Shown here: positions 12,835-25,366 of the stretch, in pieces | How positions within the stretch are numbered: the first letter of the stretch is position 1 | Layout of the letters: each line of letters starts with the position of its first letter | NCBI GenBank assembly: GCA_003135855.1 | Contig: PNBD01000086.1 | Span: forward strand, 26,420 to 66,869 | Source: Deltaproteobacteria bacterium | GTDB taxonomy: Bacteria; Desulfobacterota; Binatia; Binatales; Binataceae | DNA: 40,450 nucleotides | Direction of reading: 5' to 3' | Notes under the pieces: model-generated | Databases searched by the model: none | What the model was told of the DNA's origin: nothing | The model's input: the letters and a program-made list of their open reading frames with translations, nothing else | Made by a program: the position numbers and the translations under genes

Positions 12835-14922
12835 TCACTCGTAGCGGAGCGCTTCGATCGGATGCAGTAGCGACGCCTTGCGCGCCGGGTAGTAGCCGAA
12901 GAAAATTCCGACCGCCGCCGAAAAAATAAATCCACCCGCGACCGCCGTCGTCGATAGCAGTGTCGGCCAACCTGCGAGCGCCGAAATCAGGTTCGAGACC
13001 ACGACGCCGAGCACGATTCCCGCGAGGCCTCCGAGCAGACTCAGCATCATCGCCTCGATCAGGAACTGCAGCATGATATGGATGCGGCGCGCGCCCACCG
13101 CCATCCGGATTCCAATTTCGCGCGTCCGCTCCGTCACCGATACCAGCATGATGTTCATGATGCCGATGCCGCCGACCAGCAGCGAAATCGAAGCGACCGC
13201 CGCCAGCAGCATCGTCATTATTTTGGTCGCGCTTTCGGACGCCTGCGCGATGTCGCTGAGGTTCCGGATGGTGAAGTCATCGTCCTGCTTGGGCTGGATG
13301 TGATGGCGTTCGTGCAATGTGTGGGTGATTTGCGTCATCGCCGCGTCCACCAAGTCGGCGCTCGCGGCCTTGGCGTAGATCATGTTGACGACGCCCGTAA
13401 TCTTGGGCGCGCCGCCGAATGGATTCGTAGACGGCAGCGTCGCGAACACTGACGACGTATTCGCGGGCGCCGCAGCCGCCGCCGCGACCCCTAGAACTTT
13501 TCGCTCGGCCGTGTTGAACGGCATGATGATCACGTCGTCCTGATCCTGCCCGAAGTTCGATTGTCCCTTGACCGAGAGCACACCGATAACTCGCAGCGGA
13601 TAGTTGCGCACACGCACCGTCGCGCCGAGGGGATTCTGGCCTTCGCCGAACAGATTGATCGCGACGGTCTTGCCCAGCAGGCAAACCGCCGCGGCGTTCT
13701 TCTCCTCGGAGTCTGAAAAATTCCGGCCAATCTCGACCGGCCAATCGCGGACGTCCAGATAGCTCGAGGTAGCGCCGTTGATACTGGTGCTCCAGTTGCG
13801 ATTGCCCGATACCACCTGCGCCACCTGCCGATCGATGTAGCTGATCAGGCTGACCGCCGTGGCCTGCTTCTTAATCGTCTCCGCATCGCCAACCGTCAGC
13901 GTCGAATTGCTGCCGTAGCCGGCCCGAACGCCGTTTGCCGTCGTCGCACCCGGCAATACGATGATCAGATTGGTGCCGAGGCTCTGTATTTGCGCCTCCA
14001 CCGAGGAGCGCGCGCCATTGCCGACCGCGACCATCGCGATCACCGCGGCCACCCCGATGAAGATGCCGAGCATCGTCAATGCCGCGCGCATCTTGTTGCG
14101 TCTGAGTGCACGCGCCGCGGCCGAAACCGACATCGTCGCGAACGTCCACGCCTCGTCGCGCATCGAGGCCATGGCGGGCATTGATTCCTCGGTCGCCCGC
14201 GCGGGGTCCGTGACCCGCGCTTGATGCGCCGGGTCAGCCGGTTTACGTGCATCCGACAGGATCGTGCCATCGAGAAACGTGACCACCCGATCTGCATAAG
14301 CCGCGATGTCGGGATCGTGGGTCACGACGATTACCGTGATGCCCTGTTCCCGATTGAGGCGAGCGATGACCTCCATCAGTTCGGCGGAGTTGGTCGAATC
14401 GAGGTTGCCGGTCGGTTCATCCGCCAGCAAGATCGACGGCCGATTCACCAACGCTCGCGCGATCGCGACGCGTTGTTGCTGCCCGCCAGACAGTTGATTC
14501 GGATGATTCAGTTCGCGGCCGCTCAGACCGACCAGTTTCAACAGGTCGGCTGCGCGATGCTCCCCGTCGGCGGTCCACGCCGAATAGAAAAGCGGCAACT
14601 CGACATTCTCGAGCGCCGACGTTCGCGACAGCAGATTGAAATTCTGAAAGACGAAACCGATTCGCTTGCTGCGGATCGTCGCGAGTTCGGATTCGTCGAG
14701 GCGCGCGACGTCCTCGCCCTCCAGTATGTACTGGCCGCTGGTCGGCTTATCGAGGCATCCGAGCATGTTCATCAGCGTCGATTTGCCCGAGCCCGACGAG
14801 CCCATGACCGCCACGAATTCGCCGCGCTCGATCGTCAGGCTGACGCCGCGCAGCGCGTGCACCTCGACCTCGCCCAGCACGTAGGTCTTGGTCAGGTCGA
14901 CAATTTCGATTACCGGGCGCAT
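12835..14922 (-). CDS. macB: MacB-type ABC transporter, fused ATPase and permease
   Basis: The 695-residue protein joins an ATPase domain to a MacB permease. Residues 1-235 have Walker [10 protein letters not shown] (41-49), signature LSGGQ (144-148) and Walker B ADEPTG. After a linker come a first membrane helix ([24 protein letters not shown]), a large periplasmic domain (about 320-565) and three C-terminal helices with the FtsX-type segment [16 protein letters not shown]. It powers a tripartite efflux pump or mechanotransmission system for macrolides, peptides, toxins or lipids; the substrate is unknown here. The Ala-rich stretch [13 protein letters not shown] in the periplasmic domain is a local insertion. 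It starts 12 nt after macA. No TolC-type gene is in the window. Confidence 0.93.
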
Positions 14923-14934
14923 CGCGAATGGCGC

Positions 14935-16143
14935 TCAGCGCATCCGCGGTCCCGACGCGAACGGCGAGGTATTACCAGTCGTCTTACTGCCGGTCTTGAT
15001 CTCGTCGATCACCACCGAGTCGCCGTCATGCAGCGGCCCATCGAGCATCTCGACGAAGTTACCGTCGTTCAGCCCGATCGTGATCGACACCGGCTTGATC
15101 GAGCGCCCGTCCGGTATCCACACGCGCGCACGATTGCGTCCCGAGGAGCCGTCAACTGAATTTGCTTCGCGGATCGACGAGCCCGGCGGCGCGAACCGTA
15201 GCGCCTCCATCGGAATACGCACCGCATTGTCGCGCCGCGCGGTTACCAGCGTGACGTTGGCGGTCATCCCCGGCTTGAGCAGCAATTCCGGATTCTCGAC
15301 ATTGACGACCACGTCGTAAGTCACCACGTTCTGCACGGTGATCGGCGCCTGGCGCACTTGCCCCACGACCCCGTCGAACACGCGATCGGGAAACGCATCG
15401 ACTTTGAAACTGGCGCGCAGTCCCACCCGCACATAACCGATGTCGGACTCGCTGACGTTCGAGTCGACCTGCATCTTGGTCAGGTCTTTCGCGATCAGAA
15501 ACAAGGTCGGAGTCTGGAAGCTCGCCGCGACGGTTTGTCCGACGTCGACGTTGCGCGACACTACGGTGCCATCGACCGGCGAGACAATATTTGTGTAGTT
15601 GAGGCTGAGCCCCGCGTCCTCGAGATTCGCTTGCTGCTGCTGGATGTTCGCGTGATCGAGTGCGAGCTGCGATTGCGCTTGGGCGTAGGTGCTTTTCGCC
15701 GAATCGACGGCGTCTTTCGAAACCACGCCGTCCTTGAGCAGCGCCGCGTCGCGCTCGTAGGTCAACTTCTTGTAAGTCAGATCGGCGGAATCCTTGCCGA
15801 GCTGAGCCTTGGCGTTGGCGACCGCGGCCTTCGCCGCGTCCACTTTTACCTGGAATTGTCGCGGGTCGATTTTCGCGATTAGCTGTCCCTGTTTGACCGG
15901 CGAATTAAAGTTGGCATAAATCGCTTCGATGGGTCCCGAAACGTAACTGCCGACCTGCACCGTGATTACCGGATTGACCGTCCCGGTCGCGGTGACAGAA
16001 CGGGTGATTGCCCCTTGCGTGACTTTCGCAGTGAGAATTTTCGTCGACGACGAGCTACCGCCAAACAGGTAGATTCCCGCGACCAGAATGATCGCCGCGA
16101 CTGCGAGCATCCAAACGGAGAATTTCAGCGGAGGTAACTTCAT
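14935..16143 (-). CDS. macA: MacA-type periplasmic adaptor (HlyD/RND membrane-fusion family)
   Basis: A single N-terminal membrane helix (FSVWMLAVAAIILVAGIYLFGG) anchors the protein. It is followed by the barrel-sandwich half (ARVTQGAITRSVTATG-like opening, VQVGSYVSG), a long alpha-hairpin rich in Ala, Gln and Lys (about 95-185), the second lipoyl half (IVSPVDGTVVSRNVDVGQTV), and beta-barrel and membrane-proximal domains (LLKPGMTANVTL). This is the MacA/HlyD order. It links MacB to an outer-membrane channel. The start is ATG 16143 (402 residues); an in-frame TTG at 16155 is possible. A 16-bp dyad lies 43 bp upstream, and macB follows 12 nt downstream. Confidence 0.92.
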   Translation of the reverse strand: MKLPPLKFSVWMLAVAAIILVAGIYLFGGSSSSTKILTAKVTQGAITRSVTATGTVNPVITVQVGSYVSGPIEAIYANFNSPVKQGQLIAKIDPRQFQVKVDAAKAAVANAKAQLGKDSADLTYKKLTYERDAALLKDGVVSKDAVDSAKSTYAQAQSQLALDHANIQQQQANLEDAGLSLNYTNIVSPVDGTVVSRNVDVGQTVAASFQTPTLFLIAKDLTKMQVDSNVSESDIGYVRVGLRASFKVDAFPDRVFDGVVGQVRQAPITVQNVVTYDVVVNVENPELLLKPGMTANVTLVTARRDNAVRIPMEALRFAPPGSSIREANSVDGSSGRNRARVWIPDGRSIKPVSITIGLNDGNFVEMLDGPLHDGDSVVIDEIKTGSKTTGNTSPFASGPRMR

Positions 16144-16185
16144 CAGGTAACTCAAGTATTGATCGCCGTAACCACATTATTCCAG

Positions 16186-17490: not shown

Positions 17491-18984
17491 TCATCGAACC
17501 TCGACCCGGCGGCGCTCGAGACGCCATTCGATCGTCGTGCAGCGGCGCGCGAGCGCATCATCGTGCGTCACCATCACCATCGCGCCCGGATACTCGATGA
17601 GCGCTTCTTCGAGTCTTTCGATTGCCAGCATATCGAGATGATTGGTCGGCTCGTCGAGCACTAATCCCCAGACTTGACGACCCAGCCCGTACGCGATCGC
17701 GAGCTTGCGCGCCTCACCAGGCGACGGCAGTTGCGATCCAAGCAATCGTTCCGGGTCGACGCCCAGTGCCGCGACCAGCGACAGCGTGCGCCCGCGTTCT
17801 TCCTCACGCAAGTCGCGAACTGCGTCGAGCATCGCGATTCCCGCGGCAGTGCTGAGTTCCTGGGGCAGGTAAAGAATCCGCCACGACGCGACATGCGCAT
17901 GGCGCAGCATCGCAGCGAGCAACGTGCTCTTGCCCATACCATTCGGAGCGGTCACCCGAATCCTGCTGTCCCGCAGCACCGCGAGGTGAACATCCTCGAG
18001 CAACGTCGCGTTCCCGGCGCAGATCTCGGCTTCATCGAGCGTGAAAATTTTTGCGACCGGCGCGGGAACGTAATCGACAAAAATCGATCGCCCCTTTTGC
18101 TTGCTGAAACGATATTCCCCGATCTTGTCCGACACGCGATCCACTTCGCGCCTGAGCAGGCCCGCCTCGTAGGATTGTTTGGCGAAACCAGACAGCGCTT
18201 TTCCCTTGGCGAGCATGCTGGTGGCGTCATGGTCGCGCGGATTTTTCATTCGGTTGCGGGTCCGCGCCTGTGCCGCCGCGATCGTTTGCAGGCGACGTTT
18301 GTCCGCCAGCCGGCGTGCGAGCGTTTCGCGCTGATGCTTCAATCGCTCGTATTCCGCATGATGCTCGCGTTCTTCCGCTTCCCACGCGCACTTCGCGTCA
18401 CGATACGGACCGCGCCAGATACGCGCCGACCCATCATGAACGCGCACCGTGTACGACGTGATGCGATCGAGCAGCGCGCGGTCGTGCGAGACGATAATTC
18501 CGATGCCGCGGAAGCGCTCGAGGCCGCCAACCAGCAACTCGCGAGCTTCGACGTCGAGATGATCGGTCGGTTCGTCGAGCATCAGCACCGCCGGTTCCTC
18601 GGCGAGCGCCGCGCCGACCTGCCATCGCTTCCGCTCGCCCGGCGACAGCGTAGGCCATCGCGCGAGCAGTCCGGCGTCGAGACGCAATTCGCCGTGCAGC
18701 CGCCGCGCCAATCCATCCGTCGACTGAGCGAACGCCTCGATCTCGGGTGTCAGCGTCTCGACAGTTTGCGCGCAGATGCGCATCTCGCCCGTCGGCGGAT
18801 CGACATGCACATGCCCGGCTGACGGTTCCAGACTGCTCGCGATCAGGCAGAGCAGTGTGGTCTTGCCGTTGCCATTCGCGCCGACGATCCCGGTCCACCC
18901 GGGCGCCAGCGTGAGCGTCACGTCCGACAGAATTGAAACAGAATCCGCGTATGAAAAAGAGAGACCCGATAGTCGCACGAACAT
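17491..18984 (-). CDS. ABC-F family ATPase (ribosome-associated)
   Basis: Two ATPase domains and no membrane segment define ABC-F. Domain 1 has Walker A GANGNGKT (35-42), signature TLSPGERKR and Walker B LMLDEPTDHLD (134-144). Domain 2 has APNGMGKST (346-354), signature SPGEARKL and LVLDEPTNHLD. The linker (about 195-300) is helical and rich in Glu/Arg/Lys (EREHHAEYERLKHQRETLARRL), as expected for the arm reaching the ribosomal E site. ABC-F proteins either protect ribosomes from antibiotics or act as general translation factors; the sequence does not say which. The leader appears to hide the ribosome-binding site in a stem, which would fit drug-inducible translation. A similar SPGE signature is common in this subgroup. 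Confidence 0.92.
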   Translation of the reverse strand: MFVRLSGLSFSYADSVSILSDVTLTLAPGWTGIVGANGNGKTTLLCLIASSLEPSAGHVHVDPPTGEMRICAQTVETLTPEIEAFAQSTDGLARRLHGELRLDAGLLARWPTLSPGERKRWQVGAALAEEPAVLMLDEPTDHLDVEARELLVGGLERFRGIGIIVSHDRALLDRITSYTVRVHDGSARIWRGPYRDAKCAWEAEEREHHAEYERLKHQRETLARRLADKRRLQTIAAAQARTRNRMKNPRDHDATSMLAKGKALSGFAKQSYEAGLLRREVDRVSDKIGEYRFSKQKGRSIFVDYVPAPVAKIFTLDEAEICAGNATLLEDVHLAVLRDSRIRVTAPNGMGKSTLLAAMLRHAHVASWRILYLPQELSTAAGIAMLDAVRDLREEERGRTLSLVAALGVDPERLLGSQLPSPGEARKLAIAYGLGRQVWGLVLDEPTNHLDMLAIERLEEALIEYPGAMVMVTHDDALARRCTTIEWRLERRRVEVR

Positions 18985-19088
18985 CGTAACTGCTCCCGAG
19001 CAAGGCGCGCGCGATCGCGTCGCACGCGCTGGTTGTCCAAAACCACGAAACTGGAGCAGTTATTTCCGCACGCCTTTGTTCTCTCCCT
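18985..19088 (-). promoter_or_regulatory. Putative translational attenuator in the ABC-F leader
   Basis: Read leftward, TAACTGCTCC (19062-19053) is perfectly complementary to GGAGCAGTTA (18996-18987). The GGAG of the second arm is the Shine-Dalgarno of the ABC-F ATG at 18984, with 8 nt spacing. A smaller hairpin TGGTT/AACCA (19045-19030) sits in the 56-nt loop. The first arm begins exactly at the TAA of a possible ORF GTG-CGG-AAA-TAA (19071-19060), which has a GGGAG 11 nt upstream. A ribosome stalled there would cover the first arm and free the Shine-Dalgarno. The complementarity is seen; the mechanism is inferred from known Erm and ABC-F leaders. Confidence 0.5.
19060..19071 (-). CDS. Possible three-codon leader ORF of the ABC-F gene
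   Basis: GTG CGG AAA TAA (fMet-Arg-Lys, stop) follows AGGGAGAG at 19088-19081. The stop codon overlaps the 5' arm of the stem that hides the ABC-F ribosome-binding site. Basic Arg/Lys residues near the end are common in drug-sensing leader peptides. So short an ORF could easily be chance; its position is the only support. Confidence 0.25.
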   Translation of the reverse strand: MRK

Positions 19089-19116
19089 GAGGTTAGAAAT
19101 TTGAACTTATCACCTA

Positions 19117-19167
19117 CACCGGGCCGCACCAAGATGGGCGAGATGCTTGGTGACTTGGTGTCCGGTG
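19117..19167. repeat. Nested inverted repeat between the epoxide hydrolase-like gene and the ABC-F leader
   Basis: The outer pair is CACCGG (19117-19122) with CCGGTG (19162-19167); the inner pair is CACCAAG (19127-19133) with CTTGGTG (19146-19152). It begins about 14 nt past the stop of the gene at 19181, where a transcript end would be expected, but lacks a T-run. It shares CTTGGTGTC with the stem-loop after recA. Confidence 0.5.
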
Positions 19168-19180
19168 GTGAAGATCTTTC

Positions 19181-20140
19181 TTAAAGTCCTTTCAAGAACT
19201 CGATGAGGATCTCGTTCACTTCCTTGGCGCGCTCTTGCTGAACCCAATGCCCGGCGCCCGCAATGATCACTTTCTTCTTGAGATTTGGTGTGAACGCGCC
19301 GGCCATTTCGTACACGCCAGGATACATCTTGCCGACCACATCATGTTCGCCGGCCGCGAATACTGCGGGCTGACGCAACTTGGCGCCATCGAGGAACGGT
19401 GTCAGCTCCCAATTGCGATCGAAGTTTCGATACCAATTGATCCCGCCGCGAAAGCCTGACTGCTTGAACTCATTTGCGAAGAAGTCGAGGTCAGCCTCCG
19501 TCAGCCACGACGGCAGCTTCTTTGGAACGACGCCGGTCTCAATGAATTTCATCGTTTTCGGGAACCGGAAATTCCAGCGTTCGCTGGGCGGCGGATCGCC
19601 CGAGGCGGAATACAGCATCATTGCCATCGTGCGGCGCGGATCGGCATCGAGTTCCTTTTCGACTTTGCCCGGCTCCTGGAAATATAGCTGGTAGAAATTC
19701 TGGTCACCGGCGAGCGCCTTCATCGCATCGGTCGGGCGAACCGAACCGCGCGGAAAATACGGCACGCTGAGCAGCGCAATCGCGCGAAAAATGTCTGGCC
19801 GGAGAATTGCCGAATTCCATGCCACCGGCGCGCCCCAATCGTGTCCGACAATCACTGCGGAATCGGCGCCTATACCGTTGACCAAACCGACGATGTCACC
19901 GGTCAAATTCAGGATGTTGTAAGACTCGATCGGCTCGGGCTTGTCAGTCTGCCCGTAGCCGCGCTGATCGGGCGCGATCACTCGAAAGCCAGCCGCCGCG
20001 AGCGCCGGAATCTGATGCCGGTACGAGTACCACGACTCGGGCCATCCGTGGCACAGCACCACCAGCGGCCCGCTGCCCTGCTCGACGTAGTGCATCTTGA
20101 TGCCGTTGGTCGTGATGAATTTATGTTGCAGTTCACCCAT
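19181..20140 (-). CDS. Epoxide hydrolase-like alpha/beta hydrolase
   Basis: The 319-residue protein shows the soluble epoxide hydrolase pattern: HGWPESW (31-37) gives the oxyanion hole, GHDWG (99-103) holds the nucleophile D101, a GEHD segment near 265 supplies the acid, and GHW near 298 the catalytic His. Asp rather than Ser as nucleophile separates it from esterases. A haloalkane dehalogenase-like role is less likely given HGWPES and the cap-domain Tyr residues. It has no signal peptide. AGAAGG 7 nt before the ATG supports the start. It follows etfA by 45 nt on the same strand and may be in the etf transcript. The substrate is unknown. Confidence 0.87.
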   Translation of the reverse strand: MGELQHKFITTNGIKMHYVEQGSGPLVVLCHGWPESWYSYRHQIPALAAAGFRVIAPDQRGYGQTDKPEPIESYNILNLTGDIVGLVNGIGADSAVIVGHDWGAPVAWNSAILRPDIFRAIALLSVPYFPRGSVRPTDAMKALAGDQNFYQLYFQEPGKVEKELDADPRRTMAMMLYSASGDPPPSERWNFRFPKTMKFIETGVVPKKLPSWLTEADLDFFANEFKQSGFRGGINWYRNFDRNWELTPFLDGAKLRQPAVFAAGEHDVVGKMYPGVYEMAGAFTPNLKKKVIIAGAGHWVQQERAKEVNEILIEFLKGL

Positions 20141-24253: not shown

Positions 24254-25366
24254 ATGCTCAAGGGGCACGCGACCGCCGACGGTACCGCCGAATACGCGAA
24301 ACGCTTTCCAGGATTGCCGGGTAATTTCCGCCCGATGCTTGGCAATTCGGTCTCGTCGATCGGAATCGGCACCTATCTTGGCGATCCCGACGTCGAGACC
24401 GATCGCGCCTATGAAGAAGCGCTGACCGCCGCGCTCACCGGCGGAATCAACCTGGTCGATACCGCGGTCAATTACCGCTTTCAGCGGAGCGAACGCACGA
24501 TCGGCAAGGTCCTCGCCGAACTGGTCGCCGCGGGCAAGCTCAAGCGCGAGGAAGTCGTGATCGCCACCAAAGGCGGCTACATCACCTTTGACGGCGGCGT
24601 GCCGGACAACCCGCGCGCGTGGTTCGAGGATCATTTCGTCAAGACCGGAATCGTCTCGCCGGGCGATCTGGTGGACGGCTCGCACTGCATGACGCCGAAA
24701 TACATCGGCACGATGCTCGATTTGTCACGTGCCAACCTGGGCCTCGACACCATCGACATTTATTATGTCCACAATCCCGAGACGCAGCTCGAAGTGCTCG
24801 AGCGCAAGGAATTTCTGCGAAGGATCTCGCAGATTTTCGAGTTCCTCGAAGGCGCAGTCGCCGCGGGCAAGATCGGCGTCTACGGCGTCGCGACCTGGAA
24901 CGGACTCCGCGCGGCGCCGACCGAGCGTGGATGGCTCTCGCTCGATGAACTCGTCCGCATTGCACGCGAGGTCGGCGGCGACGCGCATCATTTCCGCGCG
25001 ATTCAGTTGCCGCACAATCTTGCGATGCCCGAAGCGGTCACGCGCGCGAATCAAATCGTCAACGGCCGCAAGACCACGACGCTCGCAGCAGCAAAGCCGC
25101 TCGGACTCGCAGTATGCGCCAGCGCATCGCTGCTGCAGGGTCAGCTATCGCGCGGATTGCCAGCGATCGTTTCCGAGGCGTTTAAGGGACTCGCAACAGA
25201 TGCGCAGCGCGCGATCCAGTTTGTCCGCTCGACGCCAGGGGTCGATGTCGCGTTGGTCGGAATGAAATCTGCCGAGCATGTGCGCGATACGCTCGCGACC
25301 GCGGCCAAGCCGCCCGCCACGGTCGAGGAGTTCATGCGGCTTTTCCAGGCTCCCGACGAACCCTAG
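24254..25366 (+). CDS. Aldo/keto reductase family oxidoreductase
   Basis: The 370-residue protein has the AKR catalytic tetrad: D69 and Y74 in NLVDTAVNYR, K106 in VIATKGGY and H173 in IYYVHNPE. The NADPH-binding end is seen in GVDVALVGMKSAEHVRDTL. It is longer than the usual ~320 because of an insert at about 110-145 (GGVPDNPRAWFEDHF...) between the Lys and His. The N-terminus also extends about 25 residues before the barrel. GGGAG about 8 nt before the ATG supports the start. It follows the VOC gene by 65 nt on the same strand. The substrate is unknown. Confidence 0.88.
   Translation: MLKGHATADGTAEYAKRFPGLPGNFRPMLGNSVSSIGIGTYLGDPDVETDRAYEEALTAALTGGINLVDTAVNYRFQRSERTIGKVLAELVAAGKLKREEVVIATKGGYITFDGGVPDNPRAWFEDHFVKTGIVSPGDLVDGSHCMTPKYIGTMLDLSRANLGLDTIDIYYVHNPETQLEVLERKEFLRRISQIFEFLEGAVAAGKIGVYGVATWNGLRAAPTERGWLSLDELVRIAREVGGDAHHFRAIQLPHNLAMPEAVTRANQIVNGRKTTTLAAAKPLGLAVCASASLLQGQLSRGLPAIVSEAFKGLATDAQRAIQFVRSTPGVDVALVGMKSAEHVRDTLATAAKPPATVEEFMRLFQAPDEP

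Follow-up and report, generated by a model that had tools for sequence, protein, structure and literature searches.

The DNA stretch analysed here (the window, 40,450 nucleotides; positions 26420-66869 of its contig) belongs to the 4.5-Mb draft genome of an uncultured bacterium of Gram-negative type, which was placed in Candidatus Binataceae or near it. On its minus strand, the window carries a gene for an ABC-F ATPase, preceded by a leader whose elements are collected in Table 1. When the protein was compared with the NCBIfam models, the top model was NF000355 (ribosomal protection-like ABC-F; E = 7.9e-79, 265.8 bits), and the EttA and Uup models ranked below it. This score misses the 380-bit cut-off of NF000355, and on its sequence the protein would be classed as a divergent relative, not as a member.

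The AlphaFold2 (AF2) model of the protein (mean pLDDT 87.8) consists of two ABC domains linked by the long helices 194-246 and 254-289, a bi-helical linker of the PtIM/ARD type. VIA-align returned VmlR2 and VgaL as the closest solved structures (both Z 35.2), followed by VmlR (Z 33.0), LsaA (Z 32.9) and human ABCF1 (Z 32.7). As human ABCF1 and housekeeping ABC-Fs also match the model, the fold is no proof of a resistance role; the modelled protein has a resistance-type look and is a candidate resistance factor. Downstream of the ABC-F gene, at a distance of 1.3 kb and separated from it by a convergent CoA-transferase gene, are genes for a MacA-like adaptor and a MacB-like ABC transporter (12835-16155, minus strand); they could possibly represent a drug-export neighbourhood.

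Architecture of the ABC-F leader

The first-pass annotation of the window had described a perfect 10-bp inverted repeat that places the Shine-Dalgarno sequence (SD) of the ABC-F gene in a stem, together with a short upstream ORF (uORF) that has a GGGAG of its own. All these elements were read from the sequence at the positions that had been claimed for them. The extent originally given to the leader (18985-19088) turned out to be slightly narrow, since the lower stem and the promoter-like site lie partly or wholly outside it, reaching 18971 and 19132, respectively.

Table 1. Features of the ABC-F gene and of its leader in the window, ordered by position.
Feature	Position	Strand	Description
ABC-F ATPase gene	17491-18984	minus	497 aa; relative of ribosomal-protection ABC-F proteins
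P1 lower stem, 3' arm	18971-18981	minus	ABC-F codons 2-5; from the fold
P2 core stem, 3' arm	18987-18996	minus	GGAGCAGTTA, with the ABC-F SD GGAG (18996-18993); identical in 7/7 leaders
P4, GC-rich hairpin in the loop	19005-19029	minus	MFE fold; similar hairpins in other leaders, sequence diverged
P3, hairpin in the loop	19030-19045	minus	MFE fold; most leaders have a hairpin here, without sequence conservation
P2 core stem, 5' arm (anti-SD)	19053-19062	minus	TAACTGCTCC, from the uORF stop codon; sequence and fold
Three-codon uORF	19060-19071	minus	GTG-CGG-AAA-TAA (Met-Arg-Lys-stop); M-[RK]-[KNQ]-stop conserved in 7/7 leaders
P1 lower stem, 5' arm	19065-19074	minus	uORF start region; from the fold
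SD-like GGGAG of the uORF	19083-19087	minus	Purine-rich run at this place in 7/7 leaders
Putative promoter-like site	19104-19132	minus	TTGGTG (19132-19127), 17-bp spacer, TAAGTT (19109-19104); predicted from sequence

The ABC-F SD is located 8 nt ahead of the ATG (18984), and the spacing between GGGAG and the uORF is rather long (11 nt). The promoter-like match is weak and falls outside the top five of the scan. Upon folding, the leader adopts a single long hairpin, composed of P1, P2 and two hairpins within the loop, with the AUG in an internal loop. In this long hairpin, the ABC-F SD is paired through P2 with the uORF stop codon and the seven nucleotides that follow it. In the sequences of the seven leaders described below, neither the P2 nor the P4 hairpin is followed by a U tract. 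The leader was therefore not assigned to the dual-mode, transcription-terminating subtype of the VmlR/CplR type, and as far as the sequence goes regulation looks purely translational. No Rfam 15 family matched up to E = 1 within 18500-19500.

We used dinucleotide shuffles and the 28 genes of the window as background for the strength of the stem. When the 104-nt leader was shuffled 20,000 times with its dinucleotides preserved, an inverted repeat of 10 bp whose 3' arm falls within the last 20 nt arose in 43 cases. Among the 28 genes, whose starts were picked automatically, the ABC-F SD is the least accessible one (probability of being unpaired, 0.008). Strongly paired SD-like sites are also found at 24254 and 34081 (plus strand; 0.07 and 0.02), at automatic starts that are possibly wrong.

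Conservation of the leader in the Binataceae

The ABC-F gene shows a patchy distribution, being present in 8 of 41 genomes of the family. For comparison of the leaders we used the window and genomes G003, G028, G015, G029, G034 and G025; the copy of G002, which is a 3' fragment only, was left out. Conservation of stem and short ORF in relatives had been proposed as a check, and the leader was found upstream of every one of the seven ABC-F copies that keep their 5' end, with uORF and stem kept throughout among proteins that are 57-87% identical. Two of these copies look broken. In G003 (L006, from 1501) the second ABC domain has an in-frame deletion of about 140 residues, and in G029 (L008, reverse, from 2175) unrelated sequence interrupts the gene at residue 222. 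These two copies and the patchy distribution (8 of 41 genomes) suggest that the gene is accessory and subject to gain and loss.

The uORF reads GTG CGG AAA TAA in the window, GTG CGG AAG TAA in G003 and G028, GTG CGG AAT TAA in G015, GTG CGG CAG TAA in G029, TTG AAA AAC TAG in G034 and TTG AAA AAC TAA in G025. The encoded tripeptides are MRK (three leaders), MKN (two), MRN (one) and MRQ (one). All the changes stay within function: the start codon is GTG or TTG, codon 2 is CGG or AAA (Arg or Lys), codon 3 specifies Lys, Asn or Gln and the stop codon is TAA or TAG. It is the sole ORF of 2-7 codons with both start and stop aligned in the seven leaders, and when the columns were permuted, any ORF so fully conserved arose in 3 of 20,000 cases. 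A purine-rich, SD-like run precedes its start by about 7-11 nt in all leaders, despite the low identity of the flank upstream of the uORF (mean, 37%). Mean identity is 84% in the 5' arm of P2 and 51% in the loop, and the 3' arm is invariant. Further upstream, five other leaders contain a promoter-like TTGAYY-N17-TANNYT, its -10 element ending 29-36 nt before the uORF; G003 has TTGGTG-N19-TAAATT, a weaker version as in the window.

A covariance model of the leader, run on 148 genomes of the class, recovered the seven ABC-F leaders at E values from 1e-16 to 8e-24. The next match (G489, L128; E = 0.002) does not precede an ABC-F gene, and we regard it as a chance hit. Such a leader is absent from the 250 nt upstream of two ABC-F homologues of the same class that are 36-39% identical (L118 and L119); L120, where the ABC-F match began only at residue 108, was left out of this comparison. 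These data bear on the possibility that the inverted repeat is a product of chance. A frequency of 0.2% in one leader is not extreme when a 40-kb window has been scanned, but chance does not account for a repeat that is kept in seven leaders next to a loop and a flank that diverge, nor for convincing model matches that are limited to ABC-F leaders. Conservation refutes this explanation, to which we give practically no weight.

A perfect 10-bp dyad close to a promoter could also be a DNA operator recognized by a transcription factor. Against this, the arms are at least 56 nt apart, and the distance from the uORF to the gene varies among the seven leaders (87, 87, 97, 97, 91, 89 and 97 nt). The 5' arm lies downstream of the promoter-like site, and its C-to-U and A-to-G changes keep G-U pairs in the RNA. 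On these grounds the operator was rejected as highly improbable.

Pairing in the RNA was then quantified. Across the seven leaders, 93.5% of the cells are paired in the P2 core stem and 83% in the P1 lower stem. Three pairs are altered on both sides, two of them in P1. At the edge of P2, G015 has U-A in place of G-C; in P1, G034 and G025 have A-U in place of G-C, the change of uORF codon CGG to AAA being matched by a change of TTC to TTT in ABC-F codon 2. Counting was done on the two ungapped arms joined, instead of on an alignment fitted to the sequences. Of 500 shuffles, 3 attained the covariation score, which no slid version did, and 21 attained the number of two-sided pairs. The covariation in this set of seven leaders, which includes two pairs of close kin, is real but modest, because arms fixed by an SD and by a stop codon can hardly vary.

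It may be argued that the hairpin merely keeps ABC-F translation low, or that it responds to temperature or to ribosome loading in general, with the tripeptide ORF a coincidence. Sequestration of the SD is strong, and a 3' arm that contains the SD forces a complementary 5' arm, so that some conservation would be expected even without a uORF. What this explanation leaves unaccounted for is the preservation of start and stop codons through GTG/TTG, CGG/AAA and TAA/TAG changes, the position of the ORF end, always exactly at the arm, and the SD-like run before the ORF in seven of seven leaders. We consider it quite unlikely.

Proposed ribosome stalling on the uORF

The first-pass annotation had interpreted the leader as a possible ribosome-stalling attenuator. 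A much more stable fold leaving GGAG open was one of the findings named as contrary to it; in six of the seven leaders there is no more stable structure of this kind, and the probability that the SD is unpaired without a ribosome is 0.001-0.044. When the 31 nt around a ribosome placed at uORF codon 1 or 3 were kept single-stranded in silico, this probability rose to 0.10-0.44 in six of seven leaders, that is, exposure of the SD upon modelled stalling is partial (10-44%). G029 is the exception: its SD has a probability of 0.26 of being unpaired without a ribosome, and the blocking effect runs the opposite way. As the ABC-F gene of G029 is disrupted, its leader is possibly in decay. The two tests that could have refuted the attenuator reading from sequence, on relatives and on folds, left it standing, and we regard it as supported.

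Based on the sequence conservation, the pairing, the conserved uORF and an SD that is hidden or exposed in silico, we assign a probability of roughly 0.8 to the leader being a uORF-dependent translational attenuator of the ABC-F gene. The transcription start, translation of the uORF, stalling, the inducing drug and resistance are steps that we infer. The mRNA would begin about 25-30 nt ahead of the Met-Arg-Lys-stop uORF. In cells growing without drug, a ribosome would read the uORF and leave fast, and the leader would close into the long hairpin; the uORF and the next 7-8 nt would then be paired with the SD and the first codons of ABC-F, and ABC-F would remain untranslated. An inhibitor would arrest the ribosome on the uORF, either on the start codon or with the stop codon in the A site. 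With its footprint, the arrested ribosome would cover the 5' arm and free GGAG, so that a second ribosome could start ABC-F, whose product would then serve as a ribosome protection factor.

Several observations weigh against this attenuator. The uORF begins with GTG or TTG, is widely spaced from its SD-like run and has its start within the lower stem. The leaders are few, two pairs of them being close kin; covariation is modest, modelled exposure of the SD is partial and the effect in G029 is reversed. Moreover, the protein fold fits human ABCF1 and housekeeping ABC-Fs as well.

The uORF could instead sense the general state of translation (amino-acid or release-factor limitation, or termination-reinitiation coupling) and not drugs. 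Any slow ribosome on the three codons would open the stem, and the ABC-F protein could be an EttA-like factor of translation quality. However, both codon 2 (Arg or Lys) and codon 3 (Lys, Asn or Gln) vary, which is a misfit for the sensing of one amino acid, and both the type of tripeptide and the protein neighbours match drug-induced resistance ABC-Fs. A sensor of this sort is, in our opinion, rather unlikely.

If the leader is a drug-responsive attenuator, its most likely inducer by analogy would be a lincosamide, a pleuromutilin or a streptogramin A rather than a macrolide, because of the type of tripeptide and of the structural neighbours of the ABC-F protein. Sensing of macrolides through a +X+ motif was set aside: the motif is absent from the Binataceae uORF, as the stop codon follows residue 3 and this residue varies (Lys, Asn or Gln).

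Relation to known attenuators and to a second leader type

Inducible ABC-F genes under uORF control are a main intrinsic route by which bacteria resist lincosamides, pleuromutilins and streptogramin A. To our knowledge, attenuation devices of this kind have been described so far mainly in Gram-positive bacteria. We found no report of such a leader for any Gram-negative ABC-F gene in the open-access literature, subscription journals being outside the scope of the search.

Three-codon uORFs are the norm for several resistance ABC-Fs of Gram-positives, where they encode MR[I/M] (CplR), MIN (VmlR) and MK[L/Q] (VmlR2) (PMC10201436), and the natural variants of the vmlR uORF include MRK, MDN and MDK (PMC9226507). 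In B. subtilis, lincomycin induction still works with an MRK uORF, although it is weaker than with MIN (PMC9226507). The Binataceae leader shares with those of CplR, VmlR, VmlR2 and Lmo0919/VgaL (Clostridia, Bacilli and Listeria; PMC10201436, PMC9226507) an M-[R/K/I]-x uORF near the 5' end, an ABC-F SD held in a stem and the use of leader sequence as anti-SD, MRK itself being natural in vmlR. In those systems, a U-tract terminator is combined with SD sequestration in several stem-loops, whereas here there is one long hairpin and no terminator, the start codons are GTG or TTG, and the phylum is a different one.

A likeness to erm and ABC-F leaders had been noted at first. The switch itself would have two arms, as in toiL, and not the four arms of erm, because the uORF nucleotides themselves belong to the 5' arm. 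The leader toiL, which controls topAI-yjhQP in E. coli (PMC12121999), is the closest in layout, being Gram-negative and having a uORF that pairs with the downstream SD. Stalling by several drug classes exposes the topAI SD, which is the same principle that we propose here; toiL differs in having a longer uORF and Rho termination, and in belonging to a toxin-antitoxin operon without any ABC-F link (PMC12121999). In ermC/ermD-type leaders and MsrDL, leader stalling likewise exposes or extends the resistance gene, but the peptides are longer and read macrolides, and the switches are four-arm or terminator ones (PMC8298421, PMC10314930).

What looks like a compact two-arm form of the switch in a lineage of uncultured Gram-negative bacteria, with a tripeptide identical to one known from Bacilli, suggests that the sensor either is of ancient origin or can readily be invented anew. 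It also hints that soil lineages of the Binataceae type meet such drugs in nature. Tentatively, and with somewhat less than even confidence, we propose that this Gram-negative candidate phylum reached the drug-reading tripeptide (M-R/K-x-stop) of Bacilli and Clostridia independently, other Desulfobacterota-type genomes having a four-arm leader with M-K/R/I-N-S-R-stop. If so, the three-codon uORF would serve as a general code by which inhibitors of early elongation are sensed. Which tripeptide reports which drug becomes testable through comparison.

This other leader was found in genomes of other families of the same phylum (L112, L113, L115, L116, L133, L134 and L135). It lies about 230-250 nt before the start of ABC-F homologues that are about 35% identical. 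Its uORF, M-[KRI]-N-S-R-stop, lies within a conserved AACAGCCGCT, which is complementary to AGCGGCTGT about 110 nt later, and a third segment, GGGCCGCTG, could compete for the pairing. The SD AAAGGTGC pairs with GCACCT in a second, SD-holding stem, and a TTGACA box is present upstream. From its sequence, this leader type looks like a four-arm attenuator. Five of the genomes have an extra AAAAGCC-GGCTTTTT hairpin.
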